DNA from: an uncultured Archangium sp.
Lineage (GTDB): Bacteria > Myxococcota > Myxococcia > Myxococcales > Myxococcaceae
Length of the DNA: 64,000 bases
Direction: 5' to 3'
NCBI GenBank assembly: GCA_903905455.1
Contig: CAIVGN010000173.1
Coordinates: forward strand, 1 to 64,000
The notes under the pieces were generated by a model. The model was not told where the DNA came from and did not search any database. It saw nothing but the letters and a program-made list of their open reading frames with translations. Below, in pieces: positions 26,871 through 43,032 of the stretch. A program made the position numbers and the translations under genes. Each line of letters opens with the position of its first letter. The first letter of the stretch is position 1.

Positions 26871-27644
26871 TCACGCGTAGCGGCCCGCCACGTACAGCGC
26901 GGTGCGTTCGTCTTTGGGCGCGGTGAAGAGCTGCTCCGTCGGCCCGCGCTCGATGATCTCCCCCATCAACATGTACACGCAGGTGTCACTCACGCGCCGC
27001 GCCTGGGCCATGCTGTGGGTGACCATCACGATGGTGAACTCGCCCTTGAGCTTTTCGATCAACGCCTCGACCTGGGCCACGCCCTCCGCGTCGAGCGCCG
27101 AGCACGGCTCGTCCATCAACAGCACCGACGGCTTGAGCGGCAACAACCGCGCGATGCACAGCTTCTGCTGCTGCTCGAGGCTCAGCTCCGTGCCGTGATG
27201 GTCGAGCCGGTCCTTCACCGCGCTCCACAGCCCCACCTCGGTCAGCGCGCGCTCCACCGCCTCGTCCAGCCGCGCCGCGTTCAGCTCCGCCCGCGGCACG
27301 TGCGAGCGCAGCCCGAAGACCACGTTCTCGCGGATGCTCAGCGGCAGCGGGTTGGGCCGCTGGAACACCATGCCCACGTGCCGGCGCAGCGACGCCAGGG
27401 ACACCGACGGCCCCAGCACGTCTTCCCCCAGCAACTCCACCTCGCCCTCCAGCCGCACGCCTTCGGCGCGCTCCACGAGCCGGTTGAAGGTGCGCAGCAG
27501 CGTCGTCTTGCCGCAGCCCGAGGGGCCGATGAGCGCGGTCAGCGTGCCCGGCTCCACGTCGAGGTCGATGTCCTTGAGCGCCTGGAACGCGCCGAACCAC
27601 AGGCTCAGCCCGCGCACCCTCACGCTCGAGGCGCCCGTGGTCAC
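26871..27644 (-). CDS. pstB: Phosphate ABC transporter ATPase, PstB type, with degenerate signature
   Basis: This is the last gene of the pst operon, 257 aa. It powers phosphate import with PstA/PstC. Walker A GPSGCGKTT, Q-loop MVFQRPNPLP, Walker B LLMDEPCSALD and the H-loop His in VTHSMAQARR are intact. The ABC signature, LSGGQQQR in PstB proteins, is LSLEQQQK, so both Gly are lost. Since the signature of one subunit completes the ATP site of the other, this subunit alone should not form a normal site as a homodimer. The GTG start overlaps the stop of the upstream ATPase gene by four bases (GTGA), which favours coupled synthesis of two partners. Confidence 0.92.
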   Translation of the reverse strand: MTTGASSVRVRGLSLWFGAFQALKDIDLDVEPGTLTALIGPSGCGKTTLLRTFNRLVERAEGVRLEGEVELLGEDVLGPSVSLASLRRHVGMVFQRPNPLPLSIRENVVFGLRSHVPRAELNAARLDEAVERALTEVGLWSAVKDRLDHHGTELSLEQQQKLCIARLLPLKPSVLLMDEPCSALDAEGVAQVEALIEKLKGEFTIVMVTHSMAQARRVSDTCVYMLMGEIIERGPTEQLFTAPKDERTALYVAGRYA

Positions 27645-28393
27645 CCGATGGCCCCCCCGAGGTAGCGCGAGGTGAGCATCACCCGCGGCCGCTCGAACAT
27701 GCTCACCACGTCGCCGACCTCCACCAGCTTCGCCGCGTTCAAGAACACCACCTGGTCCGCCAGCCGCCGCGCCTGCTGCACGAGGTTGGTGGCGAGGATG
27801 ATGGTGGTGGTGCGCTTGAGCTCGTGCAGGACCTCCTCGATGCGCATGGTGGTCACCGGGTCGATGGCGATGGAGAACTCGTCGAGGCACAGCACCTCGG
27901 GCTCCATGGACAACGCGCGGGCCAGGGTGAGGCGCTGCTGCTGGCCTCCCGACAGCCGCGTGCCCAGCAACGCCAGCCGGTCCTTGACCTCGTCCCACAG
28001 CATGGCCTGGCGCAGGGCGCGCTCCACGATGACGTCCAGCTCGGCCTTCGCGCGGACCCCGCGGCTGCGCGGCGCGTAGGCCACGTTGTCGTAGACGCTC
28101 ATCGGCAGGCCTACCGGCAGGGGGAAGACCATGCCCACCCGGCGCCGCAGGCCCAGCACGTCGCGCAGCTTGGAGACCGCCGTGCCGTCGAGCAGCACCT
28201 CGCCGGTCACCTTCGCGGTGTCCACGAAGTCGATGGTGCGGTTGAGGCACTTGAGCAGCGAGCTCTTGCCGGAGTTCGCCGGGCCGACGATGGCGCAGAT
28301 GCTGCGACGCGGCACCTCGAAGGACACCTCGTCGAGGGCGCGCACCCCGCCGTACGAGACGCTCAACTTCCGGCATTCGAGATGGGCCGTCAT
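27641..28393 (-). CDS. pstB: PstB-type ATPase paralogue lacking Q-loop Gln and H-loop His
   Basis: This 250-aa ABC ATPase in the pst operon has an intact Walker A (GPANSGKSS), Walker B with catalytic Glu (VLCLDEFSIAID) and a perfect signature LSGGQQQR. The Q-loop reads MVFPLPVGLP, with Pro for Gln. The switch His is Asn in ILATNLVQQARR, where the partner has VTHSMAQARR. It therefore offers a good signature to the partner but has a weakened site of its own, exactly complementary to the next gene. It follows pstA by 4 bases. I expect a heterodimeric ATPase in the phosphate importer (inference). Confidence 0.9.
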   Translation of the reverse strand: MTAHLECRKLSVSYGGVRALDEVSFEVPRRSICAIVGPANSGKSSLLKCLNRTIDFVDTAKVTGEVLLDGTAVSKLRDVLGLRRRVGMVFPLPVGLPMSVYDNVAYAPRSRGVRAKAELDVIVERALRQAMLWDEVKDRLALLGTRLSGGQQQRLTLARALSMEPEVLCLDEFSIAIDPVTTMRIEEVLHELKRTTTIILATNLVQQARRLADQVVFLNAAKLVEVGDVVSMFERPRVMLTSRYLGGAIG

Positions 28394-28397
28394 GACG

Positions 28398-29303
28398 TCA
28401 CCATTTCCTGTGCTTGCGAAGGCGGAGCCGCGAGACGACCGCGACGCTGTTGATGAGGAGCACCAACGTCACCAGCACCACCGCGGTGGCGTACGTGCGC
28501 TCGGGCGGCATCTGCGAGACCTGGGTGGCGATGACGTGCAGGTGCATGGCCAGGGCCATGAAGGGGTCGTCGAGGCCGTAGGGGGCGAGGCGCGCGGGCA
28601 CCCCGTCGGGAATGGCGCGGAAGAAGACCGCCCCGGTGAAGAGGATGGGCGCCGTCTCCCCGGCGGCGCGCGAGACGGCGAAGATGACGCCGGTGAGGAT
28701 GCCGCCCAGCGAGTTGGGCAGCACCACGGTGCGCAGCGTGTGCCAGCGCGACGCCCCTAAGTTCCAGCACGCCTCGCGGAATGCGTGCGGCACCGAGCCC
28801 AGGGCCTCGCGCGCCGAGGCGATGACCACCGGCAGGTTCATCACCGCGATGGTGCACGCCGCGGCCTGGAGGCTCGCCCCCAGCCCGGCGAAGAGCACGA
28901 AGGCGCCCAGGCCGAAGAGCGCGTGCACGATGGAGGGCACGCCGGCGAGGCTGGTCACCGCGAGGCTGATGACGCGCGTGGTGGGGCCGGGGCGCGCGTA
29001 CTCGTTCAAGTAGATGGCCGCGGCCACGCCCACCGGCGTCACCAGCAGCACGCTGAGCACCACCAGCCACACCGTGCCGATGAGCGGCGCCCACAACCCG
29101 CCGGCCTTGCCCTTGTCGGCCGGGTTCTCCCACAGCAGCGCGCCCGACAGCGCCGGCGCCGCGCGCACCACCAGGGTCACGAAGAGCGCCACCACCACCA
29201 GGCTCAACGCCACGGTCGCCGCCAGCGTCACGGCGTGCGCGCGGGCAGTGACCGCCTCCTTGTGGCGCTCGTGGGCGGTGGGCGCGAAGGGACTGGGGCT
29301 CAT
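28398..29303 (-). CDS. pstA: Phosphate ABC transporter permease PstA
   Basis: This is an inner-membrane permease of 301 aa with about six transmembrane helices, the first near residues 27-48. The coupling-helix EAA motif region REACWNLGASRWHTLRTVVL and the AAGETAPILF segment are typical of PstA. Its start overlaps the pstC stop by four bases (ATGA), and the first ATPase gene follows after 4 bases. It pairs with PstC as the phosphate channel. Confidence 0.94.
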   Translation of the reverse strand: MSPSPFAPTAHERHKEAVTARAHAVTLAATVALSLVVVALFVTLVVRAAPALSGALLWENPADKGKAGGLWAPLIGTVWLVVLSVLLVTPVGVAAAIYLNEYARPGPTTRVISLAVTSLAGVPSIVHALFGLGAFVLFAGLGASLQAAACTIAVMNLPVVIASAREALGSVPHAFREACWNLGASRWHTLRTVVLPNSLGGILTGVIFAVSRAAGETAPILFTGAVFFRAIPDGVPARLAPYGLDDPFMALAMHLHVIATQVSQMPPERTYATAVVLVTLVLLINSVAVVSRLRLRKHRKW

Positions 29304-30199
29304 GATCTCCCCCTCCGGCGCACGCCCTTGACCACCAGCTCGGCGGCGAGGTTCAGGGCGAAGGTGAAGACCAGCAGCACCACCCCGAGCACGAAGAGTG
29401 CGCGGTAGTGGTCCCCCCCGCGCGGGGCCTCGCCCAGCTCCGCGGCGATGGCGGCGGTCAGGGTGCGCACCGGGTCCACCAGCGAGTGGGGAATCTGGTT
29501 GGCGTGGCCGGTGGCGAGCAGCACCGCCATGGTCTCGCCCACCGCGCGGCCCAGGCCCAGGAGGCAGGCGGCGAGCAGCCCGTTGCGCGCCGCGGGGAAG
29601 AGCACCCGGTGCACCAGTTCCCAGCGGCTGGCGCCCAGGGCGAGCGCGGCCTCTCGGTACGAGTCGGGCACGGCCCGCAGCGCGTCCTCGGCGATGGACA
29701 CGATGACCGGCGCGCTCATCAGGCCCAGCACCAGGCCGCCGGTCAGCAGGTTGGTGCCTAAGGGCGCGCCTGTGACCTCGCTGACCACCGGGCCCACCAG
29801 CATCAGCCCGATGAAGCCCCACACCACCGAGGGCACCGCGGCGAGCAGCTCGATGGTGACCTTGAAGAACTCCCGGGCGCGGCGGCCGGCGAACTCCGAG
29901 ATGTAGACCGCGGCGGCGAGCCCGGTGGGCACGGCCACGAGCATCGCCACCAGGGTGGTGGTCAGGGTGCCCACGATGAGGGCCAGGGCGCCGTAGTGCG
30001 GCTCGTTGCCGCGGGCCGGCGCGGGGATCCACCGGGTGGAGGTGAAGAACTCGTGCCAGTCGATGCGCGGCACCACCGGCGCCGCCTCGCGCAGGAGGAA
30101 GAGGGTGATGGCCGCCATGCCGAAAATGGCGCTCCACCCGCTCAAGAAGATGAAGGCCTCGATGAGGCGCTCACCGATCCTGGCGCGCGAGAGGTTCAT
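29300..30199 (-). CDS. pstC: Phosphate ABC transporter permease PstC
   Basis: This is an inner-membrane permease of 299 aa with about six helices. Motifs include LLAAVPSVVWGFIGL, the EAA-type loop REAALALGASRWELVHRVLF, and LGRAVGETMAVLLATGH, all characteristic of PstC. The ATG overlaps the pstS stop (ATGA) and its stop overlaps pstA, so the operon is tightly coupled. Confidence 0.94.
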   Translation of the reverse strand: MNLSRARIGERLIEAFIFLSGWSAIFGMAAITLFLLREAAPVVPRIDWHEFFTSTRWIPAPARGNEPHYGALALIVGTLTTTLVAMLVAVPTGLAAAVYISEFAGRRAREFFKVTIELLAAVPSVVWGFIGLMLVGPVVSEVTGAPLGTNLLTGGLVLGLMSAPVIVSIAEDALRAVPDSYREAALALGASRWELVHRVLFPAARNGLLAACLLGLGRAVGETMAVLLATGHANQIPHSLVDPVRTLTAAIAAELGEAPRGGDHYRALFVLGVVLLVFTFALNLAAELVVKGVRRRGRS

Positions 30200-31068
30200 C
30201 GCACCGGCACGTAGCCCTCGCGGGCGACGATCTCCTGGCCTTCATCGGACGACACCCACGCGAGGAAGGCGCGCAGCTGCGGCGTCGGCTCGCCCGCGGT
30301 GTACACGTAGAGCTTGCGGGCGATGGGGTAGTCGCCGGTGCGCGCGCCCTCGGCCGAGGGGAGCACGGCGGCCTCTCCCGGCTTGCCCGAGACGCCCAGC
30401 CACTTCACCCGGTCGGTGCGGTAGCCCATGCCGCTGTAGCCCAGGGCCAGCGGCGCGCCGGCGATCTTCTCCAGCACTTCGCTCGAGCCGCTGAGCTCCG
30501 AGACCCCGCCGCGGAACTCGCGCCCGTGCCCGTCGGCCCCCACGCCGCACACCACCTCGCGGAAGTAGTCGTAGGTGCCCGAGCTGTTCTGCCGGCCGAT
30601 GAGCACCACCTTGCCGCGCAGGGCCGGCGTGAGCTGCGACCAGTCGGTGAGGGTGCCGTCTTCGGCCCACAGCTCGCCCAGCTGAAACAGAGAGAGCGCG
30701 GTGAGCGGGTTGTCCCGGTGTACGAAGATGGCGAGCGCGTCGGAGCCCACGAAGAGCTCGTGCACCTCGAGGCCGCGGCCCTGGCGGATGGCCTCGCGCT
30801 CGCGCGGCTTGATCTCCCGGCTCGAGGTGGCGACGTCGACGGTGCCCTCGATGAGCCCGGCGAGGCCCACGCCAGAGCCGCCCCCCGAGGCGTCGACGGC
30901 CACCCTCGGCTCGACGACCGCGTAGCGCTCGGCCCAGCCCGTGGCGACCTGCACCAGCGTGTCGGAGCCCTTGATGGACAGCGTGTGTTTCCCGGGCCGC
31001 CCCGGCGGGCACCCGGCGAGCACCGCCGCGAAGAGCAGTGCGATGTGCTGAGGCTTCGCGAGGCCCAT
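30196..31068 (-). CDS. pstS: Phosphate-binding lipoprotein PstS
   Basis: This is the periplasmic phosphate receptor of the Pst importer, membrane-tethered here. The lipoprotein signal ends in LLFAAVLAGC. Ligand-binding segments are visible: IKGSDTLVQVATGW, DASGGGSGVGLAGL, ATSSREIKPRE and GRQNSSGTYDYFRE. At 290 aa it is slightly short for the family. The ATG at 31068 is chosen because it gives the signal; upstream codons are polar. It is the first gene of the pst operon. No phoU, phoB or phoR lies in the window. Confidence 0.94.
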   Translation of the reverse strand: MGLAKPQHIALLFAAVLAGCPPGRPGKHTLSIKGSDTLVQVATGWAERYAVVEPRVAVDASGGGSGVGLAGLIEGTVDVATSSREIKPREREAIRQGRGLEVHELFVGSDALAIFVHRDNPLTALSLFQLGELWAEDGTLTDWSQLTPALRGKVVLIGRQNSSGTYDYFREVVCGVGADGHGREFRGGVSELSGSSEVLEKIAGAPLALGYSGMGYRTDRVKWLGVSGKPGEAAVLPSAEGARTGDYPIARKLYVYTAGEPTPQLRAFLAWVSSDEGQEIVAREGYVPVR

Positions 31069-31293
31069 GGGCTCGTCATAGGCCCGTCGATGCGTCGATG
31101 CGTGACGCCTCGGTGTCACTTTCGTTGCGCGCAGAGCCGCAACGGTTGCGTCATCAATGATCTCGCGTGTTCACCGGCAGGGTCTCACGTCATTCGGATG
31201 ACGGGCACGCTCCGTATTCACACCAGGGAGCGAAGGGCGAGGAGGCGCCACATGAAAAGTGAGTTCGAGCTCGCCATCTCTTAAGGGGCTTTC
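31069..31293. promoter_or_regulatory. Divergent control region of pst operon and porin, with inverted repeats
   Basis: These 225 bases separate divergent pstS and the porin gene and should hold both promoters. I see CGTCATTCGGATGACG at 31188-31203 (6-bp arms), another CGTCAT at 31149-31154, and a GTTGCG/CGCAAC inverted repeat at 31124-31143. None matches the enterobacterial Pho box (TGTCA direct repeats) well, so PhoB control is plausible from context but not shown. Confidence 0.45.
31252..31284 (+). CDS. Possible 10-residue leader peptide before the porin gene
   Basis: ATG at 31252 has a strong GGAGG 7 bases upstream and encodes MKSEFELAIS, then TAA. The porin ATG follows 9 bases after the stop. 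A good ribosome site on so short a frame directly before a gene suggests a leader or translational-coupling peptide, but it could be coincidence. Confidence 0.35.
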   Translation: MKSEFELAIS

Positions 31294-32508
31294 ATGAAGT
31301 ACCTCGTCGTCAGTGCGCTGTGCGTGTGGAGTGCAGGAGCGGCTTGGGCGCAGGGCGCAGAGCCCGATGCGGGCGTGGTCGCCGAGGCGCCGAAGGCGGA
31401 GCCCGTGGTGGTGAAGATCGCCATGGGGAAGGGCCTCACGGTCTCGAAGGGCGAGGGCCTCTCGATGAACATCCGGGCGCGCATCCAGCTGCGCGACGTG
31501 GTCTCGGTGCAGGGGGCCGCGGTGGCCAACGAGCTCTCGCTGCGCACGGCGCGCCTCTTCATCAGCGGCAAGGTGCTCTCTCCCGACGCGGGCTACTTCG
31601 TGCAGCTGGCGCTGGGAGCCAACGACTTCGAGACGGGCATCTCGAGCCCGGTCTTCGACGCGTACCTCGAGTACACCGGCTGGCGCGACGTGCAGCTGCG
31701 GGCCGGCCAGTTCTTCGTGCCCTTCGACCGCGCGCGCACCATTCGCGAGGTGGCGCTGCAGATGGTGGATCGCCAGCAGGTGATCACCGAGCTCGCGCTC
31801 GATCGCGACCTGGGCATCGTGATCAGCTCGCAGGATCTCTTCGGCTGGGGCGGGCGGGTGACCTACGCGCTCGGCTTCTTCGGGGGGCAGGGCAAGAACC
31901 GGGTCACGCCGGAGAAGAAGCCCGGCTTCCTCTACTCGGCGCGCATCGCCATCAAGCCCATGGGGGCCTTCGATGACGACGTCGAGGCCGACCTGGACCG
32001 CACGCCGCACCCGCACCTGGCCATCGGCGTGGCCGCGGCCTTCAACCAGGACACCTCGCGCCAGAAGAGTCTCTCGGGCACGGTCTTCACCCTGGGCGGC
32101 TTCGACACCGTGCACCTCGCGGCCGACGTGGTGTTCAAGTTCAAGGGCTTATCGCTGCTCGCCGAGGCGCTGATGCGGCAGGCGACCGTGGCGATGCACG
32201 AGGGTGAGCTCAACGGCGCGCCCCTCAAGGAGTACTCGCGCTCAGGCTGGGGCTACCTGGTGCAGGCGGGCTACCTGGTGACCTCGCGGGTGGAGATCAC
32301 CGCCCGCTGGGACCAGCTGCGGTTCCTCGCCGGTGACCCGGCGCTGGCCACGCTCGTCGCGCAGCAGGGTCGCGAGCTCGGAGTGGGCCTCAACGTGTAC
32401 CTCAACGGGCACCAGGGGAAGATCCAGGGTGACTACTCGTTGCGCTTTGGCGAGGGCTCGGTGGCGGCGACGCACCTGGTGCGGGTGGCGCTCGACGTGT
32501 CGTTCTAA
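31294..32508 (+). CDS. Phosphate-selective-type outer-membrane porin (OprO/OprP family)
   Basis: A signal peptide (MKYLVVSALCVWSAGAAWAQ) precedes a 16-strand-type beta-barrel sequence with alternating polar and hydrophobic residues, ending in the aromatic residue Phe (VALDVSF), as outer-membrane barrels do. The opening SMNIRARIQLRDVVS, and QLRAGQFFVPFDRARTI, match the Porin_O_P family, whose members take up phosphate or polyphosphate. Being divergent from the pst operon fits phosphate specificity. At 404 aa the length is normal. Charged-loop Lys residues that select anions cannot be judged by eye. Confidence 0.88.
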   Translation: MKYLVVSALCVWSAGAAWAQGAEPDAGVVAEAPKAEPVVVKIAMGKGLTVSKGEGLSMNIRARIQLRDVVSVQGAAVANELSLRTARLFISGKVLSPDAGYFVQLALGANDFETGISSPVFDAYLEYTGWRDVQLRAGQFFVPFDRARTIREVALQMVDRQQVITELALDRDLGIVISSQDLFGWGGRVTYALGFFGGQGKNRVTPEKKPGFLYSARIAIKPMGAFDDDVEADLDRTPHPHLAIGVAAAFNQDTSRQKSLSGTVFTLGGFDTVHLAADVVFKFKGLSLLAEALMRQATVAMHEGELNGAPLKEYSRSGWGYLVQAGYLVTSRVEITARWDQLRFLAGDPALATLVAQQGRELGVGLNVYLNGHQGKIQGDYSLRFGEGSVAATHLVRVALDVSF

Positions 32509-32520
32509 GGGGGCGCGCGG

Positions 32521-33222
32521 TCAGGGCGCGCGGGCCTGGTCGAGGGCGGCGGTGAGCCAGGTGGCCACGGCGGCGCGCATCGGGGCGGAGATCTCGTGGC
32601 CGGCGTCGAAGGACTGGAATTCGTACGGCACGCCGGCGGCTTTCAGGGTGGCCTCGGTGGCGAGCGCGTGGCGGTACGGGAGCACCTGATCCGCCGTGCC
32701 GTGCAGCAAGAGCACGCGGGGTGAGGGGCGCCCGGAGACGGGCTCGAGGTCGGGCAGCACGCGCCCGGAGATGGCCACCACGCCCTTGATCAGCCCCGGC
32801 TCGGTGAGGGCGATGGAGAGGCTCATGATGGTGCCCTGGCTGAAGCCCAGCAGGTACACGTCGGCGCCGGTCTTCTGGAGGTCTTGCAAGAAGGTGATCA
32901 GCCGCAGGCGCGAGCGCTCGGCCTCGGCCGGGTCGTGCGTGGGGCCGTCGGGGGTGAAGGTCAGCGGGTACCAGGCGAAACGCTCGGGGCCGAGGGTCAG
33001 CGGGCCGCGCAGGCTGTAGAGGTCGAAGCGCGGGTCGAGGCTCGCCCCGAGGCCCAGGAGGTCGCGCTCGTTCGAGCCGAAGCCGTGGAGCAGCACCAGC
33101 ACCGGGGGCCTGGCGCTCGCCACGCGGGTGGGCAGGAAGACCGAGGTGAGCGGGGGGGTGGTGGGCGTCTTCGTGCAGGCCACGAGCGAAGACAGGACGA
33201 GGAACAACGGCAGGCGGTTCAA
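32521..33222 (-). CDS. Lipoprotein carboxylesterase / phospholipase-like hydrolase
   Basis: This is an alpha/beta hydrolase of the carboxylesterase/YpfH type. It has LVLLHGFGSNERDLLGLG (oxyanion HGFG), the nucleophile GFSQG (Ser near residue 115), a catalytic Asp in LHGTADQVLPY and a His in FDAGHEIS. I start it at a TTG (33222) with GGGAG 6 bases upstream, which yields a lipoprotein signal ending SSLVAC; a GTG 39 bases further upstream would put a polar segment ahead of the signal. The same frame stays open for 10 kb upstream, but only as antisense of the giant gene. It converges on the porin gene. Confidence 0.85.
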   Translation of the reverse strand: MNRLPLFLVLSSLVACTKTPTTPPLTSVFLPTRVASARPPVLVLLHGFGSNERDLLGLGASLDPRFDLYSLRGPLTLGPERFAWYPLTFTPDGPTHDPAEAERSRLRLITFLQDLQKTGADVYLLGFSQGTIMSLSIALTEPGLIKGVVAISGRVLPDLEPVSGRPSPRVLLLHGTADQVLPYRHALATEATLKAAGVPYEFQSFDAGHEISAPMRAAVATWLTAALDQARAP

Positions 33223-33315
33223 AGGTGGGCTCCCGTGGAAGATCCTCCCGATTTCCGTCACTGTTTTGATCCTGCACACGGCGCGCGACCCCGGTGTCAG
33301 ATATGCGCCCCCCCC

Positions 33316-36300
33316 ATGCGCCAGCTCCGATCCTTGTTCGCCCTGATGCTGCTGTCCGCGACCGCCTTCGCCGCAGCGCCGACCGCCACCACCACCGCCG
33401 CCACCAGCGTCACCGCGACCTCGGCGTTGCTCAACGGCTCCGGCAACCCCGGCAGTGAAGCCACCATCGGCTGGTTCCGCATGGGCACCACCAGCCCCGG
33501 CGCCTGCAACGACACCTTCGGCACCCGCGTGCCCAGCAGCAGCGGCACCTCGCTGGGCGCCGGCGCCGTCGCGGCCACCTACTCGGTCTCGGCCACCGGC
33601 CTCCTGCCCGGCACCACCTACTTCTACTGCGCCATCACCCAGAACCCCTCGGGCACCGCGCTGGGTGGCCTGCTCACGCTGACCACCCCGGCCCTCGCCC
33701 CCACCGTCGCCACCTCCTCGGCCACCGTGGTCACCAGCTTCTCCGTCACCCTCAACGGCACCGGCATCCCCAACGGCTCCGCGAGCACCGGCTTCTTCCG
33801 CTACAGCACCGTGAGCCCCGGCGTTTGCAACAACACCTTCGGCACCCGCGCCCCGCTCACCCTGGGCACCGACCTCGGCAACGGCAACGCCTCCGTGCCG
33901 TACAGCGAGGTCGTCTCCGGGCTCCAGGCCGGCGTCACCTATTACTACTGCGCCATCGCCACCAACGGCGTGGGCACCGCGTTTGGCAACCTGCTGCAGT
34001 TCACCACGCTCGTCGCCGCGCCCGCGGTGCTCACCACCGCCGCCACCTTCATCACCGGCACCTCGGCCAACCTGAACGGCACCGTCAACCCCAACGGCGC
34101 GTCCACCGTGGGCTGGTTCCGCCTCGCCTCGTCGGACCCCGGCTCGTGCAGCGACGCCTTCGGCACCCGCGTGCCCGCCTCGGGTGGCACCGCGCTCGGC
34201 GCCGGCAGCGTCAACACCACCTACGCCCAGAGCGCCGCCCTCAACCCCGGCACCACCTACTACGCCTGCGCCATCTCCCAGAACTCCGAGGGCGTCACTC
34301 TCGGCGCCCTGGTCTCCTTCATCACCCCTGACGTGCCCACCGTGTCCACCAGCGCGGTCACCAGCCTCACCGCCACCTCGGTCACCTTGAACGGCGCCGC
34401 CACGCCCAACCGCGACTCCACCACCGGCTGGTTCCGATACTCCACGCTCAACCCCGGCACCTGCAACGACAGCTTCGGCTCCCGCGCCCCCGTCAGCAGC
34501 GGCACCGGCCTCGGCGCCGGCACCGTCCCCGTGGGCTTCACCCAGTCGGTCACCGGCCTCACGCCGGGCACCACCTATTTCTACTGCGCCATCGCCAGCA
34601 ACACCGTGGGCACCGGCTTCGGCTCGCTGCTCACCTTCACCACCCCGGCCACGGCGCCCCTCGTCAGCACCAACACCATCACGTTGATCACCGGCACCAC
34701 CGCCACGCTCAACGGCACCGCCATTCCCCGCGGCGACGTGGCCACCGGCTTCTTCCGCTACTCCACCGTGAGCCCCGGCACCTGCAACGACACCTTCGGC
34801 ACGCGCGCCCCGGCCAGCGGCGGCACCAACCTCGGCAGCGGCAACGGCTCCATCGCCTACCTCGAGCCCCTCACCGGGCTGACCGCGGGCACCACCTATT
34901 ACGTGTGCGCCATCGCCACGAACTCCGTGGGCACCGGCTTCGGCTCGCCGTCCACCTTCACCACGCCCGCCGTCCCCACCGTCACCACCACCGCGGCCAG
35001 CGGCGTGTACGGCAACGGCGCGCAGCTCAACGGCTTCGCCAACCCCAACCTCGGCACCACCACCGGCTACTTCCGCTACGCCACCACCAACCCCGGCACC
35101 TGCGACGACGTCTTCGGCACGCGCACCCCCACCACCGGCGGCACCAGCCTCGGCGCGGGCAGCGGCGCGGTCTCGTACGCGGCCAGCCTCGGCACGCTGA
35201 ACCCCGGCGTCACCTATTACTTCTGCGCCATCGCCTCGAACCTCGTGGGCACCGGCTTCGGCTCGGTGATGAGCTTCACCACGCCCGCGCTCCCCTCGAT
35301 GACCACGCTCGGGCCGTCGCCCATCACCGCGGTCAGCGCCACGCTCAACGGCACCGGCAACCCCAACGGCGCCAGCACCACCGGCTACTTCCGCTACAGC
35401 ACCACCAACCCCATGCTCTGCGACGACTTCTTCGGCACGCGCTACCCCGCGGCCGGCGGGGTCGTCCTCGGCGCCCTCAACGCCCCCGTGAGCTTCAACC
35501 AGGCGCTCACCGGGCTGGTGCCCGGCACCACCTACTACGTGTGCGCCATCGGCCAGAACTCCGTGGGCACCGGCTTCGGCAGCGTGCTCACCTTCGCCAC
35601 GCCGCCCACCGCGCCCCTGGTCATCACCAACTCGGTCAGCGTCATCACCGGCACCACCGCCACGCTCAACGGCCAGGCCAACCCGCGCGGCGCCGCCAGC
35701 ACCGGCTGGTTCCGCTACAGCACCAGCAACCCCGGCGTGTGTGACGACGTCTTCGGCACCCGCGCCCCGGCCACCGGCGGCACGGCCCTGGGCACCTCGA
35801 ACACCTACCAGCCCTCCGCCGAGAGCCTCGTGAGCCTCACGCCGGGCACCACCTATTATTACTGCGCGCTCGCCAGCAACTCGATGGGCACCTCGGTGGG
35901 CAGCGTGGGCAGCTTCGTCACCCCCAACATCCCCGCGGTCACCACCACCGCGGCCACCGGCGTGGGCGGCACCTTCGCCACGCTCAACGGCACCGGCAAC
36001 CCCAACAACGCCACGGCCACCGGCTGGTTCCGCTACGCCACCAGCAACCCCGGCACGTGCGACGACGTGTTCGGCACGCGCACCCCGGCCAGCGGCGGCA
36101 CCAACCTCGGCGCGGGCACCTCGCCCGTCGCCTACACCAGCTCCGTCGGCGGGCTCACCCCGGGCACCACCTATTACTTCTGCGCCATCTCGCAGAACCT
36201 CGTGGGCACCGGCTTCGGCAGCATCTTGAGCTTCGTGACGCCGGCCATCCCCACCGTCACCACCGTCGCGCCCACGCTGCTGACCGCGACCTCCACCACC

Positions 36301-39300
36301 TTCAACGCCACCGCCGTGCCCAACGGCGCCACCGCCACGGGGTGGATGCGCTACGACACGGTCAACCCGGTCACCTGCAACGACAGCTTCGGCCTCCGGC
36401 TCCCGGCGATCAGCGGCGGCAGCGCGCTCGGCGCCGGTGTCACCCCCATCAACTACAGCCAGCTCTCTGGCGCGGCGCTCCTGCCGGGCACCACCTATTA
36501 CTTCTGCGCGCTCGCTTCGAACTCGGTGGGCACGGGCTTTGGCAGCGTCATCTCCGTCACCACGCCGCCCACCGCGCCGCTGGTCACCACCAACTCCGCC
36601 ACCAGCGTCACCGCCAGCAGCGCCACGCTCAACGGCACCACCGTGCCCCGCGGCGACGTGACCACCGGTTGGTTCCGCTACGACACCACCAACCCCGGCG
36701 GCTGCAACGACAGCTTCGGGTTCCGCGTGCCCTTCGCCGCCGGCACCGCGCTGGGCAGCGGCAACACCTCGGTGCCCTTCAGCCAGCCGCTGACCGGCCT
36801 CGCGCTCGCCACCACCTACTACTACTGCGCCATCTCGCAGAACTCGGTGGGCACCAGCTTCGGCGCCATGGCCAGCTTCGTCACCTCGCCCACCGCGCCG
36901 GCCGTCACCACGCTGGCGGCCACCAGCATCACCACCACCGCGGCCACCATGAACGCCTCGGTCACGCCCAACGGCTCGGCCACCACCGCCTGGGTGCGCT
37001 ACTCGACGACCAACCCCGGCACCTGCAGCGACACCTTCGGCACGCGCGCGCCCTCGTCGGGCGGCACCACCCTGGGTGCGGGCACCAGCGCCATCCCCTT
37101 CAGCATCACCCCCACCACGCTGACCCCCGGCGCGACGTACTACTTCTGCGCCATCGCCCAGAACGGCGCGGGCACGGGCTTCGGGGCGGTGCTCACCTTC
37201 ACCACCATCTCCACCCCGCCCACGCTCAACACCCTGGCCGCGACGGCCATCGGCGGCACGGTGGCCACGCTCAACGGCTCGGCCAACCCCAACGGTGACG
37301 CCACCACCACCTGGTTCCGCTACGCCACCTCGAGCCCCGGCACCTGCAACGACACCTTCGGTACCCGCGTGCCCGTGGCCGGCAACAACCTGGGCAACGG
37401 CATCTCGGCCGTGGCCTTCGCCGAGCCGCTCACCGGGCTCACCTCGGGCGCGACCTACTACTTCTGCGCCATCGCCCAGAACTCGCTGGGCACGGTGTTC
37501 GGCCTGGTGCTCTCGTTCTCCACCCCGCAGTCGCCCACGGTGGTGAGCAACGCCGCCTCGCCGGTGACCGCGACCTCGTCGACGCTCAACGGCACCGCGA
37601 CGCCCAACGGCACGTCGGCCACCGGCTGGTTCCGCTACGGCACCACCAACCCCACGGCCTGCGACGACACCTTCGGCACGCGCACCCCGGCCACCGGCGG
37701 CACCGCCCTGGGTTCGGGCACGCTCCCTCAGTCCTACGCGCAGGCGCTCTCGGGCCTGCAGCCGGGCACCACGTATTACTTCTGCGCGCTGGCCTCGAAC
37801 CTCGTGGGCACGTCCTTCGGGGCGCTCTTGAGCTTCACCACGCCGCCGTCCGCGCCCTCCATCGCCGCGGCGCCGGCGACCAACGTGGGCTCCACCACGG
37901 CCACCTTCAACGCCTCGGCGAACCCCAACGGCTCGGGGACCACGGGCTACTACCGCTACTCCACCACCAGCCCCGGCACCTGCAGCGACAGCTTCGGCAC
38001 GCGCGTGCCGGCCACCGGGGGCAGCAACCTCGGCGCGGGCACCTCGGTCACCGCGTTCCTCGAGAACGTCACCGGGCTCCTGCCGAACACCACGTATTAT
38101 TTCTGCCCCATCGCCGCGAACGCGGTGGGCACGTCGTTCGGCGGGGTGCAGTCGTTCATCACCACCGCGGCGCCCACGGTGCTCAGCGCGGCGGCCACGG
38201 TCATCACGTCGAGCGGCGCGACGCTCAACGGCTCGGCCAACCCCAACCGCGACGCGGCCACGGGCTGGTTCCGCTACTCGACGACCAACCCCGGCACCTG
38301 TGACGACACCTTCGGCACGCGCGCCCCGGCCACCGGCGGCACGGCGCTGGGCAACGGGAGCCTCGCCCTCGCCTACAGCCAGGCGCTGACCGGCCTGGCC
38401 CAGGGCACCACCTATTACTTCTGCGCCCTCGCGCAGAACGGCGTGGCCCTCTCGGCCGGCGCGGTGCTCTCCTTCACCACCACCAACGCGCCCACCCCGG
38501 TGACGGTCGCGGCCAGCGGCGTCACCGGCACCACGGCCACGCTCAACGGCAGCACCAACCCCAACGGCGCGACGGCCACCGCCTGGTTCCGCTACGCGAC
38601 GACCAACCCCACCACCTGCAACGACACCTTCGGCACGCGCACCCCGGCCACCGGCGGCACGGCCCTGGGCGCGGGCACCGCGGCCGTGGCGCACACCGCC
38701 GCGCTCACCACCCTGGTCGCGGGCACCACCTATTACTTCTGCGCCATCGCCTCGAATGCGGCGGGCACCAGTTTCGGCGCGGTGCTCTCCTTCACCACGC
38801 CCGGCGCGCCGACGGTCACCACCACCCCGGCCACCGCGCTGACCACCACCACCGCGACGCTCGAGGGCACGGCGAACCCAAACCTCGGCGCGGCCACCGG
38901 CTGGTTCCGCTACGCCACGGTGAACCCGGTCACCTGCAACGACACCTTCGGCACGCGCGCGCCGGCCACCCTCGGCACCACCCTGGGCAGCGGCAGCACG
39001 CCGGTCGCCTTCACCCAGCCCATCACCGGGCTCGTCCAGGGCACCACGTATTACTTCTGCGCCATCGCCAGCAACGCGGTGGGCACGCGCTTTGGCAGCC
39101 CGCTGAGCTTCACCACCCAGTCGGCGCCGGTGGTGGTCACCAGCGCGGTCACCACCCTGGGCAGCACCACCGTCACCCTCAACGGCACGGCCAACCCGCG
39201 CAGCGACGCGACCACCGGCTGGTTCCGCTACGCCACGGTGAACCCGGTCACCTGCAACGACACCTTCGGCACGCGCGCCCCGACGACGGGCGGCACCTCG

Positions 39301-42300
39301 CTGGGCGCGGGCGCCGTCGCGGCGCCGTACAGCCAGGGCCTCACCGGGCTCAGCCTCGGCACCACGTATTATTTCTGCGCGCTGGCCAGCAACGCCAACG
39401 GCACCTCGGTGGGCACGGTGCTCAGCTTCACCACCACCAACGTGCCCACGGTACTCACCTCGGCGGCCACGGCCATCGGCGGCACGGGCGCGACGCTCAA
39501 CGGCAGCGGCAACCCCAACGGTGACGCGGCGACGGGCTACTTCCGCTACGCCACCACCAGCCCCGGCACCTGCAACGACACCTTCGGCACGCGCAGCCCG
39601 GCGACCGGCGGCACCAACCTCGGCAGCGGCACCGCGGCGCTGGCCTTCTCGGCGGCGGTGACGGGCCTGAGCCCCACCACCACGTATTACTTCTGCGCGC
39701 TGGCCACGAACTCGGTGGGCACGTCGTTGGGCCTGGTGCAGACCTTCACCACGCCCACGGCCCCGGCGGTGACCACCACGGCGGCGAGCCTGGTGCTCTC
39801 CACCACGGCGACGCTCAACGGGAGCACCAACCCCAACGGCCTGACCGCCACCGCGTGGTTCCGCTACTCGGCGACGGATCCCGGCGTGTGCAACGACACC
39901 TTCGGCACGCGCGCGCCGCTGACCCTCGGCACGGCCCTGGGCGCGGGCAGCGCGGCGGTGGTCCACAGCCAGGCCCTCACCGGGCTGGTCTCGGGCACCA
40001 CGTATTACTTCTGCGCCATCGCCTCGAACTCGGCGGGCACCTCGGTGGGCGGGCTGTTGAGCTTCACCACCCCGGGCGCTCCGGTGACCACCACCACCGC
40101 GGCCACGGCAGTGACCAGCGCGGCGGTGACCCTCAACGGCACGGCGAACCCGGCGGGCAGCGCCACCACGGCCTTCTTCCGCTACAGCACGGTGAACCCT
40201 GTGACCTGCAACAACACCTTCGGCACGCGCTTCCCGGCGACGGGCGGCACGGCCCTGACGGCCACCTTCACCAGCTCGCCCTTCTTCGAGAACCTCACCG
40301 GGCTCGCGGCGGCGACGACGTATTACTCCTGCGCGTTGGCGACCAACGCGTTCGGCACCACCTTCGGCGCGGTGCTCAGCTTCACCACGGCGGCGGGCCC
40401 CGCGGTGGCCACGTCGGCGGCCTCGGCAGTGACCAGCACCACGGCGACGCTCAACGGCTCGGCGTCCCCGCGCGGGTTGGCGGCCACCGGCTGGTACCGC
40501 TACGCGACGGTGAACCCCGTCACCTGCAACGACGCCTTCGGCACGCGCGTGCCGGCCACCGGCGGCACCTCGCTGGGCGCGGGCACCACGGCGGTGGGCT
40601 TCGTGGAGAACCTCACCGGGTTGACCCCGGGCACCACCTATTACTTCTGCGCGGTGGCCTCGAACTCCGCGGGCACCTCGACGGGCACGGTGGAGCTCTT
40701 CACCACCCCCGGCCCGCCGAACATGGTGAGCCTCGCGGCGACGGCGGTGAGCTCCACCGGCGGCACGCTCAACGGCGCGGGCACGCCCAACGGGGCGGCC
40801 ACCACCGGCTGGTTCCGCTACGCCACCACCAACCCCGGCCTGTGTGACGACGTCTTCGGTACCCGCACCCCGGCGACGGGCGGCACGGCCCTGGGCAGCA
40901 CCAACACCGCGACGCCGTACGCGCAGGCGCTGACGGGCCTGGTGCCCGGCACCACGTATTTCTTCTGCGCCCTGGGCAGCAACGTCAACGGCGCGCGGCA
41001 GGGCACGGTGCTCAGCTTCACCACCCCGGCGGCGCCGGTGGTGACCACGGTGGCGGCCTCGGCCGTCGCCGGCACCTCGGCCACGCTCAACGGCACGGCC
41101 AACCCCAACGCCTCGGCGAGCACCGGCTGGTTCCGCTACGCCAGCACCAGCCCCGGCGCGACCTGCAACGACACCTTCGGCACGCGCATGCCGGCCACTG
41201 GCGGCACGGCCCTGGGCGCGGGCATCACCGCCGCCGCCTACACCCAGCCGCTCACCGGGCTCACCCCCGGCGCGACGTATTACTTCTGCGCGCTGGCGAG
41301 CAACGCGGTGGGCACGGCCTTCGGCCTGCCCCTGAGCTTCACGGTGCCCGCGGCGGTACCGGTGGTCACCACCGCGGCGCCGACGTTGATCAGCGGCGTG
41401 GGCGCGACGCTCAACGGCACGGCGAACCCGGGCGGCGCGACGGCGACGGGCTGGTTCCGCTTCTCCACCACGAGCCCCGGCACCTGCAATGACACCTTCG
41501 GCACCCGCGCCCCGGCGACGGGCGGCAGCGCGCTGGGCGCGGGCACCACGGCGGCGAACTACGCGCAGGCCGCGACGGGCCTGAGCCCGGGCACGACCTA
41601 CTTCGTGTGCGCGGTGGCCTCGAACTCGGCGGGCACGGGCTTCGGGCCGGTGCAGACCTTCGTCACCCCGGGCTTGCCGGTGGTGGCGACCTCGCTGGCC
41701 TCCGCGGTCGGGGGGAGCACGGCCACGCTGAACGGCAGCGTCAACCCCAATGGGGCGGCGGCCACGGGCTGGTTCCGCTACGCGACGACGAGCCCCGGCA
41801 GTTGCAACGACACCTTCGGCACGCGCGCGCCCACCACGGGCGGGCTGGCCGTCGGCGCGGGCACCACGGCGGCGCCGCTGACCGTCAACGCGCTGGGCCT
41901 CACGCCGGGCACCACCTACTACTACTGCGCCATCGCCTCGAACGTGGTGGGCAGCGCGGTGGGCACGGTGCAGACCTTCCGCACCTCGGCGGCCCCGGCG
42001 GTGATGACGTCTTCGGCGTCGAACGTGGCGGGCGCCCTGGCCACGCTCAACGGCGCGGGCACGCCCAACGGCGCGGCGACCACCGGCTACTTCAGGTACG
42101 CGACGACGAGCCCCGGCGCCTGCAACGACACCTTCGGCACGCGCGCCCCGGCGACGGGCGGCAGCGCGCTGGGCAGCGGGATGAGCCCGGTGAGCTTCGC
42201 GCAGGCGGTCTCCGGGCTGCTCCCGGGGCAGACGTATTACTTCTGCGCCATCGGCTCGAACGCGGTGGGCACGGCGTTGGGCGAGGTGTTGTCCTTCTCG

Positions 42301-43032
42301 GTGGTGGCGCCGCCTCCGACGGTGACCACGCTGCCGGCGACGGACCTCGCCACGCGCGACAGCACCTTCAACGGCCGCGCGAACCCGCGGGGCACGTTGG
42401 CCGAGGGCTGGTTCCGCTACAGCACCACGGCGCCTTCGATGTGTGACGACACCTTCGGCACGCGCGTGCCGGCGACGGGGGGCACGCCGCTGGGCTCGGG
42501 CACCGTCGACGCCCCGTGGAGCGCGGCCATCACCGGCCTCAAGCCGGGCACGAAGTACTCCGTGTGCGCGGTGGCCTCGAACCAGGGCGGTGCGTCGTTC
42601 GGCGCGGTCGAGACGTTCACCACGGCGGTCACCATCCCCACGGTGCGCACCGGCGCCTCCACCATCGACAGCACGGACGTGACGATGAACGGCACGGCGA
42701 ACACCAACGGCATGGCGGGCAAGGGCTGGTTCCAGGTCACGCCGGATCGCCCCATCGTGTGCACCGCGAGCATCGGGCAGCGCTTCCCGCCCGAGGGCCT
42801 GCCGCTGGCCGACGTCGACGGCGACGTTGCGCTCAAGCACACCATGACCGTGCCGGTGGGCGCGTTCTTCTACTGCGCGGCGGTGGAGACCCCCGGTGGC
42901 CTGGTGTTCGGCGACGTGCAGACCTTCAAGCGCGAGGAAGCGGCGACGGGTTGCGGGTGCTCCAGCGGTGGCGAGCTGGGGTTGCTGGCGCTCGGGCTGC
43001 TGTGGTTCGCGCGCCGGCGTCGCCAGGCCTGA
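33316..43032 (+). CDS. Giant surface protein of 30 tandem Cys-paired repeats with MYXO-CTERM tail (3238 aa)
   Basis: A signal peptide (MRQLRSLFALMLLSATAFA) is followed by 29 full repeats of about 105-107 residues and one degenerate final repeat. Each starts like PTVTTTAATGV, has ATLNGTANPNG and TGWFRYATTNP, then a first Cys in CNDTFGTR. A GGTALGAG turn and a second Cys in GTTYYFCAIASN follow, then FGAVLSFTTP. The pattern resembles fibronectin type III-like beta sandwiches, with one potential disulfide each. The C-terminus is a MYXO-CTERM tail (TGCGCSSGGELGLLALGLLW then RRRR), which directs surface anchoring in Myxococcota. A rod about 30 domains long would suit adhesion or cell-cell contact (inference). 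No catalytic domain is present. Confidence 0.93.
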   Translation: MRQLRSLFALMLLSATAFAAAPTATTTAATSVTATSALLNGSGNPGSEATIGWFRMGTTSPGACNDTFGTRVPSSSGTSLGAGAVAATYSVSATGLLPGTTYFYCAITQNPSGTALGGLLTLTTPALAPTVATSSATVVTSFSVTLNGTGIPNGSASTGFFRYSTVSPGVCNNTFGTRAPLTLGTDLGNGNASVPYSEVVSGLQAGVTYYYCAIATNGVGTAFGNLLQFTTLVAAPAVLTTAATFITGTSANLNGTVNPNGASTVGWFRLASSDPGSCSDAFGTRVPASGGTALGAGSVNTTYAQSAALNPGTTYYACAISQNSEGVTLGALVSFITPDVPTVSTSAVTSLTATSVTLNGAATPNRDSTTGWFRYSTLNPGTCNDSFGSRAPVSSGTGLGAGTVPVGFTQSVTGLTPGTTYFYCAIASNTVGTGFGSLLTFTTPATAPLVSTNTITLITGTTATLNGTAIPRGDVATGFFRYSTVSPGTCNDTFGTRAPASGGTNLGSGNGSIAYLEPLTGLTAGTTYYVCAIATNSVGTGFGSPSTFTTPAVPTVTTTAASGVYGNGAQLNGFANPNLGTTTGYFRYATTNPGTCDDVFGTRTPTTGGTSLGAGSGAVSYAASLGTLNPGVTYYFCAIASNLVGTGFGSVMSFTTPALPSMTTLGPSPITAVSATLNGTGNPNGASTTGYFRYSTTNPMLCDDFFGTRYPAAGGVVLGALNAPVSFNQALTGLVPGTTYYVCAIGQNSVGTGFGSVLTFATPPTAPLVITNSVSVITGTTATLNGQANPRGAASTGWFRYSTSNPGVCDDVFGTRAPATGGTALGTSNTYQPSAESLVSLTPGTTYYYCALASNSMGTSVGSVGSFVTPNIPAVTTTAATGVGGTFATLNGTGNPNNATATGWFRYATSNPGTCDDVFGTRTPASGGTNLGAGTSPVAYTSSVGGLTPGTTYYFCAISQNLVGTGFGSILSFVTPAIPTVTTVAPTLLTATSTTFNATAVPNGATATGWMRYDTVNPVTCNDSFGLRLPAISGGSALGAGVTPINYSQLSGAALLPGTTYYFCALASNSVGTGFGSVISVTTPPTAPLVTTNSATSVTASSATLNGTTVPRGDVTTGWFRYDTTNPGGCNDSFGFRVPFAAGTALGSGNTSVPFSQPLTGLALATTYYYCAISQNSVGTSFGAMASFVTSPTAPAVTTLAATSITTTAATMNASVTPNGSATTAWVRYSTTNPGTCSDTFGTRAPSSGGTTLGAGTSAIPFSITPTTLTPGATYYFCAIAQNGAGTGFGAVLTFTTISTPPTLNTLAATAIGGTVATLNGSANPNGDATTTWFRYATSSPGTCNDTFGTRVPVAGNNLGNGISAVAFAEPLTGLTSGATYYFCAIAQNSLGTVFGLVLSFSTPQSPTVVSNAASPVTATSSTLNGTATPNGTSATGWFRYGTTNPTACDDTFGTRTPATGGTALGSGTLPQSYAQALSGLQPGTTYYFCALASNLVGTSFGALLSFTTPPSAPSIAAAPATNVGSTTATFNASANPNGSGTTGYYRYSTTSPGTCSDSFGTRVPATGGSNLGAGTSVTAFLENVTGLLPNTTYYFCPIAANAVGTSFGGVQSFITTAAPTVLSAAATVITSSGATLNGSANPNRDAATGWFRYSTTNPGTCDDTFGTRAPATGGTALGNGSLALAYSQALTGLAQGTTYYFCALAQNGVALSAGAVLSFTTTNAPTPVTVAASGVTGTTATLNGSTNPNGATATAWFRYATTNPTTCNDTFGTRTPATGGTALGAGTAAVAHTAALTTLVAGTTYYFCAIASNAAGTSFGAVLSFTTPGAPTVTTTPATALTTTTATLEGTANPNLGAATGWFRYATVNPVTCNDTFGTRAPATLGTTLGSGSTPVAFTQPITGLVQGTTYYFCAIASNAVGTRFGSPLSFTTQSAPVVVTSAVTTLGSTTVTLNGTANPRSDATTGWFRYATVNPVTCNDTFGTRAPTTGGTSLGAGAVAAPYSQGLTGLSLGTTYYFCALASNANGTSVGTVLSFTTTNVPTVLTSAATAIGGTGATLNGSGNPNGDAATGYFRYATTSPGTCNDTFGTRSPATGGTNLGSGTAALAFSAAVTGLSPTTTYYFCALATNSVGTSLGLVQTFTTPTAPAVTTTAASLVLSTTATLNGSTNPNGLTATAWFRYSATDPGVCNDTFGTRAPLTLGTALGAGSAAVVHSQALTGLVSGTTYYFCAIASNSAGTSVGGLLSFTTPGAPVTTTTAATAVTSAAVTLNGTANPAGSATTAFFRYSTVNPVTCNNTFGTRFPATGGTALTATFTSSPFFENLTGLAAATTYYSCALATNAFGTTFGAVLSFTTAAGPAVATSAASAVTSTTATLNGSASPRGLAATGWYRYATVNPVTCNDAFGTRVPATGGTSLGAGTTAVGFVENLTGLTPGTTYYFCAVASNSAGTSTGTVELFTTPGPPNMVSLAATAVSSTGGTLNGAGTPNGAATTGWFRYATTNPGLCDDVFGTRTPATGGTALGSTNTATPYAQALTGLVPGTTYFFCALGSNVNGARQGTVLSFTTPAAPVVTTVAASAVAGTSATLNGTANPNASASTGWFRYASTSPGATCNDTFGTRMPATGGTALGAGITAAAYTQPLTGLTPGATYYFCALASNAVGTAFGLPLSFTVPAAVPVVTTAAPTLISGVGATLNGTANPGGATATGWFRFSTTSPGTCNDTFGTRAPATGGSALGAGTTAANYAQAATGLSPGTTYFVCAVASNSAGTGFGPVQTFVTPGLPVVATSLASAVGGSTATLNGSVNPNGAAATGWFRYATTSPGSCNDTFGTRAPTTGGLAVGAGTTAAPLTVNALGLTPGTTYYYCAIASNVVGSAVGTVQTFRTSAAPAVMTSSASNVAGALATLNGAGTPNGAATTGYFRYATTSPGACNDTFGTRAPATGGSALGSGMSPVSFAQAVSGLLPGQTYYFCAIGSNAVGTALGEVLSFSVVAPPPTVTTLPATDLATRDSTFNGRANPRGTLAEGWFRYSTTAPSMCDDTFGTRVPATGGTPLGSGTVDAPWSAAITGLKPGTKYSVCAVASNQGGASFGAVETFTTAVTIPTVRTGASTIDSTDVTMNGTANTNGMAGKGWFQVTPDRPIVCTASIGQRFPPEGLPLADVDGDVALKHTMTVPVGAFFYCAAVETPGGLVFGDVQTFKREEAATGCGCSSGGELGLLALGLLWFARRRRQA
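33385..42936 (+). repeat. 30 tandem repeats of about 318 bases
   Basis: The repeat unit matches the protein repeat. Conserved nucleotide cores such as GACACCTTCGGCACGCG and GGCACCACCTATTACTTCTG recur in nearly every copy. Central copies (about 35 kb to 42 kb) are the most alike, while the first copies and the last are more diverged, as expected when unequal recombination homogenises the middle. Confidence 0.92.

Follow-up and report, generated by a model that had tools for sequence, protein, structure and literature searches.

What a phosphate importer does with two PstB-type ATPases, each of which has lost motifs kept by the other, is the question raised by one operon of the window, that is, of the whole stretch of 64,000 nucleotides analysed here. 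An earlier note on this DNA had read the two proteins as the paired ATPases of a probable asymmetric phosphate importer. This reading is supported by the comparative analysis described below, in which the heterodimer itself is deduced from sequence.

An operon with two PstB-type ATPases

The operon runs from 31119 to 26871 of the minus strand in the order pstS-pstC-pstA-pstB(A)-pstB(B), and pstS, pstC, pstA and pstB genes are found together in it. The two ATPases are referred to as A and B. The genes, and a divergent neighbour, are:

30196..31119, minus strand: PstS phosphate-binding protein; TIGR02136 174.7 bits, below the cut-off of 206.6; PF12849 match
29300..30199, minus strand: PstC permease, single copy; TIGR02138 290.6 bits, above the cut-off of 196.45
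28398..29303, minus strand: PstA permease, single copy; TIGR00974 234.5 bits, above the cut-off of 193.45
27641..28393, minus strand: PstB(A), PstB-type ATPase; Walker side degenerate (Q-loop Pro, switch Asn), LSGGQQQR signature intact
26871..27644, minus strand: PstB(B), PstB-type ATPase; Walker side intact, signature LSLEQQQK degenerate; its GTG start overlaps the stop of A (GTGA)
31294..32508, plus strand: divergent gene; weak match to phosphate-selective porin O/P (PF07396, 26.1 bits, cut-off 20.9)

The junctions pstS/pstC, pstC/pstA and A/B overlap, the last as the GTGA that the earlier note had described, and the single PstA and single PstC that it had counted both score above the curated cut-offs of their phosphate families. 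PstS is a probable lipoprotein with the lipobox LLFAAVLAGC, and its true start is probably an internal ATG preceding GLAKPQHIALLF. The divergent gene is a possible outer-membrane partner of the importer. A Pho box was sought between pstS and this gene, and no direct repeats were present there. Further along the window, a very long open frame on the plus strand (32884-43032) encodes several dozen tandem repeats with a unit of ~ 90 residues and paired cysteines and ends in a C-terminal tail of the CGCSS type.

The best NCBIfam match of both ATPases is TIGR00972, with 274 bits for A and 312 bits for B, both under the cut-off of 343.2, and neither protein has the full set of canonical motifs. A and B are PstB-derived, not typical PstB, with TIGR00972 still their best family. 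AlphaFold2 models of A and B had a pLDDT of 91 and 92, respectively, and the best structural match of both was PstB of E. coli (9k3s/9k3x); in the model of A the confidence dropped to 72 at the Q-loop block and to 68 at the Walker B/D-loop block. In the entire 8.6 Mb assembly, which is 97.8% complete, no PstB-class gene besides A and B was detected, the next-best ABC ATPase of this genome scoring 162 bits, so a second complete pstB, which would have spoken against the proposed pairing, was not found.

Motif losses in A and B are complementary

The motifs and coordinates that had been reported were confirmed; the motifs are MVFPLP, ATNL and LSGGQQQR in A versus MVFQRP, VTHS and LSLEQQQK in B. 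The diagnostic sites, with their occurrence in 48 A proteins and 46 B proteins that were tabulated, are:

28121..28123, minus strand: A Q-loop, Gln replaced by Pro91 in GMVFPLPVGLP; Pro in 48/48 A proteins
27932..27955, minus strand: A ABC signature, LSGGQQQR intact; LSGGQQQR in 47/48 A proteins, ISGGQQQR in one
27857..27883, minus strand: A end of Walker B and D-loop, unusual DEFSIAIDP (Walker B CLDE); catalytic Glu kept
27785..27787, minus strand: A switch, His replaced by Asn203 in LATNLVQQA (ATNL); Asn in 48/48 A proteins
27162..27185, minus strand: B signature, LSLEQQQK degenerate; SGG in 0/46 B proteins, L-x-L-E in 45/46

The remaining motifs of B are Walker A GPSGCGKT, Q-loop MVFQRP, Walker B/D-loop LMDEPCSALD and switch VTHS. 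A has the Walker A motif GPANSGKS with its Lys, and this Lys, the catalytic Glu and the unusual D-loop of A are features that the earlier note had passed over. SGGQQQR, DE and the Walker A Lys were each present in 48/48 A proteins, DEFSIA[IV]DP was found in every full member of the A clade tabulated, and the Q-loop Gln and the switch His were kept in 46/46 B proteins; in ordinary PstB both residues were canonical in 39/39. The position of the signature Ser varies in B (Q, T, S, L, P) and is fixed in A. The A/B motif pattern is far beyond chance, since the diagnostic residues are unchanged over ~ 60 homologous pairs of 53-80% identity.

The gene pair is conserved in about ten phyla

Both genes are present in a genome of the same genus (G003; 80% and 74% identity) and in two genomes of another genus of the family (G105 and G107; 55-59% identity), in all cases with the same diagnostic residues; other members of the family (among them G004, G005 and G012) have a single ordinary PstB. 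A type at E ≤ 1e-70 was found in only 4 of 96 genomes of the family, namely G003, G105, G107 and the genome of the window (G000). A scan with one genome per species yielded 44 loci with 55-65% identity in Planctomycetota, Verrucomicrobiota (with Kiritimatiellae and Lentisphaerae), Poribacteria, Acidobacteriota, Gemmatimonadota, Eisenbacteria, Myxococcota, a Desulfobacteraceae MAG and Fibrobacterota, about ten phyla overall, a number that binning errors could inflate because most A/B genomes beyond Myxococcota are MAGs. A restriction of the pair to Myxococcota was therefore rejected, and so was plasmid-borne spread, as no A-type match above 47% was found in plasmids.

In all loci not cut by a contig end A adjoins B, nearly always downstream of pstS-pstC-pstA. 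Among 195 genomes of the phylum of the window, 5/5 B-type matches adjoin an A. Searches with the motif of one partner were used to avoid selection by the query; they relied on exact codon patterns, and the counts are therefore lower bounds. The D-loop codons of A matched at least 30 of 392 Planctomycetota genomes, and 10/10 loci retrieved from these hold the full pair; the signature codons of B matched at least 5 of 250 Verrucomicrobiota genomes, with A next door in 5/5. Loci reached through the motif of one partner thus contained the other in 15/15, as would be expected of a heterodimer with a degenerate site. The co-occurrence of the two defect patterns, which had been suggested as a check within Myxococcota, holds there without exception and also far beyond the phylum. 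At E ≤ 1e-70 the pair is the sole PstB in 16 genomes (G000, G003, G105, G107, G195, G197, G200, G208, G209, G225, G226, G228, G233, G234, G237 and G238), a count in which the apparent absence of others may be explained by incompleteness of MAGs; many other A/B genomes carry an ordinary PstB too.

At six Poribacteria loci (L065, L066, L067, L076, L079 and L082) a third PstB-like ATPase is encoded ~ 1-2 kb downstream of B. It has degenerate motifs of its own, mostly MVFRKP, LSIGQQQL and FATNKRRQA, and is accompanied by a second PstA-like permease in L065 and L082; judged by these motifs, it appears to be part of a further asymmetric system.

The clades of A and B are distinct and old

In the phylogenetic tree, A and B form separate clades with support values of 100/99 (A) and 100/98 (B). 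They do not group together to the exclusion of ordinary PstB, and therefore an origin from a single duplication is not shown by the tree. The pairwise distance matrices of A and B correlate with r = 0.85 (Mantel 0/5000), so that the two trees mirror each other. This co-divergence fits co-inheritance and would be compatible with interaction of the partners; simple co-inheritance of an operon would also give it.

A pair at the base of both clades was found in G194 (L140), which belongs to the same phylum as the window. It has a milder pattern, with MVYAMP (Q to A), VTN (H to N), LSGGQQQR and DEPCSGLD in A and LSGEQQQR in B, and PhoU is encoded downstream. By its motifs this pair is a possible evolutionary intermediate, an earlier stage on the same path. 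A second LSGEQQQR pair in Myxococcota was rejected, since the sole extra match (G184, L187) lies in an unrelated frame and arose by chance.

A coupling helix specific to the A/B family is found in PstA but not in PstC

In type I importers, the coupling (EAA) helix of each permease docks onto one of the ATPases around its Q-loop. The coupling helix of PstA, FREACWNLGASRW (~ 28743-28781), is specific to the A/B family, whereas that of PstC, YREAALALGASRW, is of the ordinary type. PstA of the A/B family has FREACWN[VLM]GA[TS]RW versus REGSLALGAT in ordinary PstA; in 47 sequences Trp180 and Phe175 were found in 47/47, Asn181 in 96% and Cys179 in 94%. PstC of the family keeps the usual YREAA-ALGATRW. 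Of the 14 family-specific columns of PstA, four lie inside the seven columns of the coupling helix (Fisher p about 1e-4, with columns picked post hoc). Because only PstA has a family-specific coupling helix, the data suggest that PstA docks on the degenerate A with its altered Q-loop (PLPVGLP) and PstC on B.

PhoU is missing in a few A/B genomes

A search for PhoU found none in the genomes of G000, G003, G105, G107 and G209, so that the window's genome has no PhoU partner for its importer. PhoU was present in 11/11 relatives of the same order with an ordinary pstB that were tested, and most A/B genomes of other phyla have it as well. The loss holds in four Myxococcota genomes and G209; it was therefore rejected as part of the mechanism and is local, not defining for the A/B variant. 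Phosphate signalling may be wired differently in G000, G003, G105 and G107.

A probable importer with a consensus ATP site and a degenerate one

The genes, their motifs and operon, the deep conservation, co-occurrence and co-divergence of A and B, the change specific to PstA and the PstB fold of both models were observed directly. They are likely to be best explained by a phosphate importer of asymmetric composition, PstSCA-B(A)B(B), in which an obligate heterodimer combines a consensus ATP site with a degenerate one; within this explanation we infer the heterodimer, the ATP occupancy, the docking sides and phosphate as the substrate. Site 1 would be built from Walker A, Q-loop, Walker B and switch His of B and the LSGGQQQR of A, a full consensus ATPase site. 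Site 2 would combine the Walker side of A (Pro, Asn, catalytic Glu kept) with the L-x-L-E-QQQ-K signature of B and be degenerate. No homodimer would have a consensus site, because an AA dimer is without a normal Walker side and a BB dimer without a normal signature. With Lys and Glu retained in A, ATP binding at site 2 is probable, with slow or no hydrolysis; this site would act as the hinge, and the power stroke would come from site 1. A would probably carry PstA with its altered coupling helix, and B would carry PstC.

Walker-side losses in one NBD and a signature loss in the other leave one composite site with the consensus, as is typical of degenerate-site pairs. With a random distribution of the three losses (Q, H and signature) over two subunits, all three would come together in a single composite site in a quarter of the arrangements; the arrangement alone is therefore modest evidence, and conservation is the strong part. 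Replacement of the catalytic Glu in the degenerate site, a common though not universal hallmark, is not seen here, with DE in all A proteins.

In one alternative, both sites of the heterodimer hydrolyse ATP; the L-x-L-E signature would then be tuned to work with the Pro/Asn Walker side, which would make this site slow or regulated and not degenerate. Lys and Glu are invariant in A, the unusual residues of A and B are rigidly conserved without drift, and DppD/DppF of E. coli is asymmetric in nucleotide binding by appearance, yet both subunits hydrolyse (PMC12136057). Moreover, Asn is tolerated at the switch position in MRP1, of which the H-loop His-to-Asn mutant has wild-type-like transport (PMC7756269). 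Given this tolerance in MRP1 and the catalytic Glu retained in A, hydrolysis at site 2 may persist, and the site read as degenerate may be slow instead of dead. However, three of the gamma-phosphate-contacting elements are changed at once, and the signature Ser, fixed in A, is free to vary in B, which leaves hydrolysis at both sites a small chance. A slightly smaller one is given to an asymmetric importer of the proposed kind that transports an oxyanion other than phosphate. PstS and both ATPases score below the cut-offs of their phosphate families, and the ordinary PstB in many A/B genomes would fit such a role, but PstA and PstC exceed theirs, the 16 genomes named above have no other PstB found, and the divergent gene weakly matches phosphate-selective porins.

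It is quite improbable that a B homodimer is the motor and A a regulatory pseudo-ATPase, for example a replacement of PhoU. The absence of PhoU from G000, G003, G105 and G107 and its presence in the ordinary-pstB relatives would agree with this, but PhoU is retained by most A/B genomes beyond Myxococcota. In addition, LSGGQQQR and the dimer-interface residues of A are invariant, which would be needless in a non-motor subunit, the signature of B is never canonical, and PstA is altered at the very helix that docks to the NBD. A sequencing error, or a tandem duplicate degenerating by recent decay or by chance, might be suspected in an assembly of 251 contigs, and decay is frequent in tandem duplicates. 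The homologues keep both defects instead of showing intact motifs, with identical residues in the ~ 60 other pairs, dN/dS versus G003 is ~ 0.3 (simple counting) and the clades of A and B are distinct and old; this explanation is hardly credible and was rejected on the conservation of the diagnostic residues.

Comparison with known systems

The asymmetric importer shares the gene set, the S-C-A-B order, the ATPase folds and the PstA/PstC families with the PstSCAB importer, exemplified by E. coli PstB, but replaces the one canonical PstB by two PstB whose motif losses are complementary, and has an altered PstA coupling helix and, in the window's genome, no PhoU. The statement that PstB normally is a homodimer has to be qualified, as Firmicutes carry tandem pstB genes, that is, two adjacent pstB with one pstC and one pstA. 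PstB1 and PstB2 of E. faecalis are encoded adjacently and both have all canonical motifs, the paralogues being not equivalent (PMC12096839), and PstBA/PstBB of B. subtilis have been modelled as a mixed pair (PMC11466899). Unlike in the E. faecalis tandem, in which both copies are canonical, each partner in the A/B pair is without motifs kept by the other.

With the exporters TAP, CFTR, TM287/288, BmrCD and Pdr5 the pair shares that Walker-side and signature changes would meet in one composite site. It differs from them in being an importer with NBDs on separate polypeptides, in which the catalytic Glu is kept and the Q-loop Gln is lost. The degenerate-site signature of Pdr5 is LNVEQ, with Glu for the second Gly (PMC7756269), and strikingly resembles the L-x-L-E-Q of B. 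Asymmetric sites had been described in the earlier note as known for TAP, CFTR and some bacterial exporters; they are known in importers too, since RbsA and NupO of B. subtilis are importers with one degenerate ATP site (PMC11466899). These two transport sugars or nucleosides, have both NBDs fused on a single chain and have lost different residues (Walker A Lys, signature). In the open-access literature, no report of a degenerate or heterodimeric PstB was found beyond the work on the Firmicutes tandem genes. Thus, the principle of one degenerate site is known, and a complementary-degenerate PstB pair in phosphate uptake has apparently not been described before.

A wider reading is put forward tentatively, and we are slightly more doubtful than convinced of it: a single consensus site may burn one ATP per phosphate, and the A/B systems would be an undescribed, phylum-spanning class of importers that work only as PstB(A)/PstB(B) heterodimers, with the orientation fixed by a PstA co-evolved to dock on the degenerate subunit, and with some Myxococcota members working without PhoU.

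Why a degenerate ATP site is kept is a long-standing question that has been studied nearly only in exporters. In a system with separately encoded complementary ATPases each site can be mutated independently, and the substrate is measurable. The A/B systems also represent a type of phosphate uptake system that had gone unrecognised in Planctomycetota, Verrucomicrobiota, Acidobacteriota, Myxococcota and other phyla, in which automatic annotation would probably label both A and B as pstB, and the Myxococcota cases raise the question of how phosphate signalling proceeds without PhoU.
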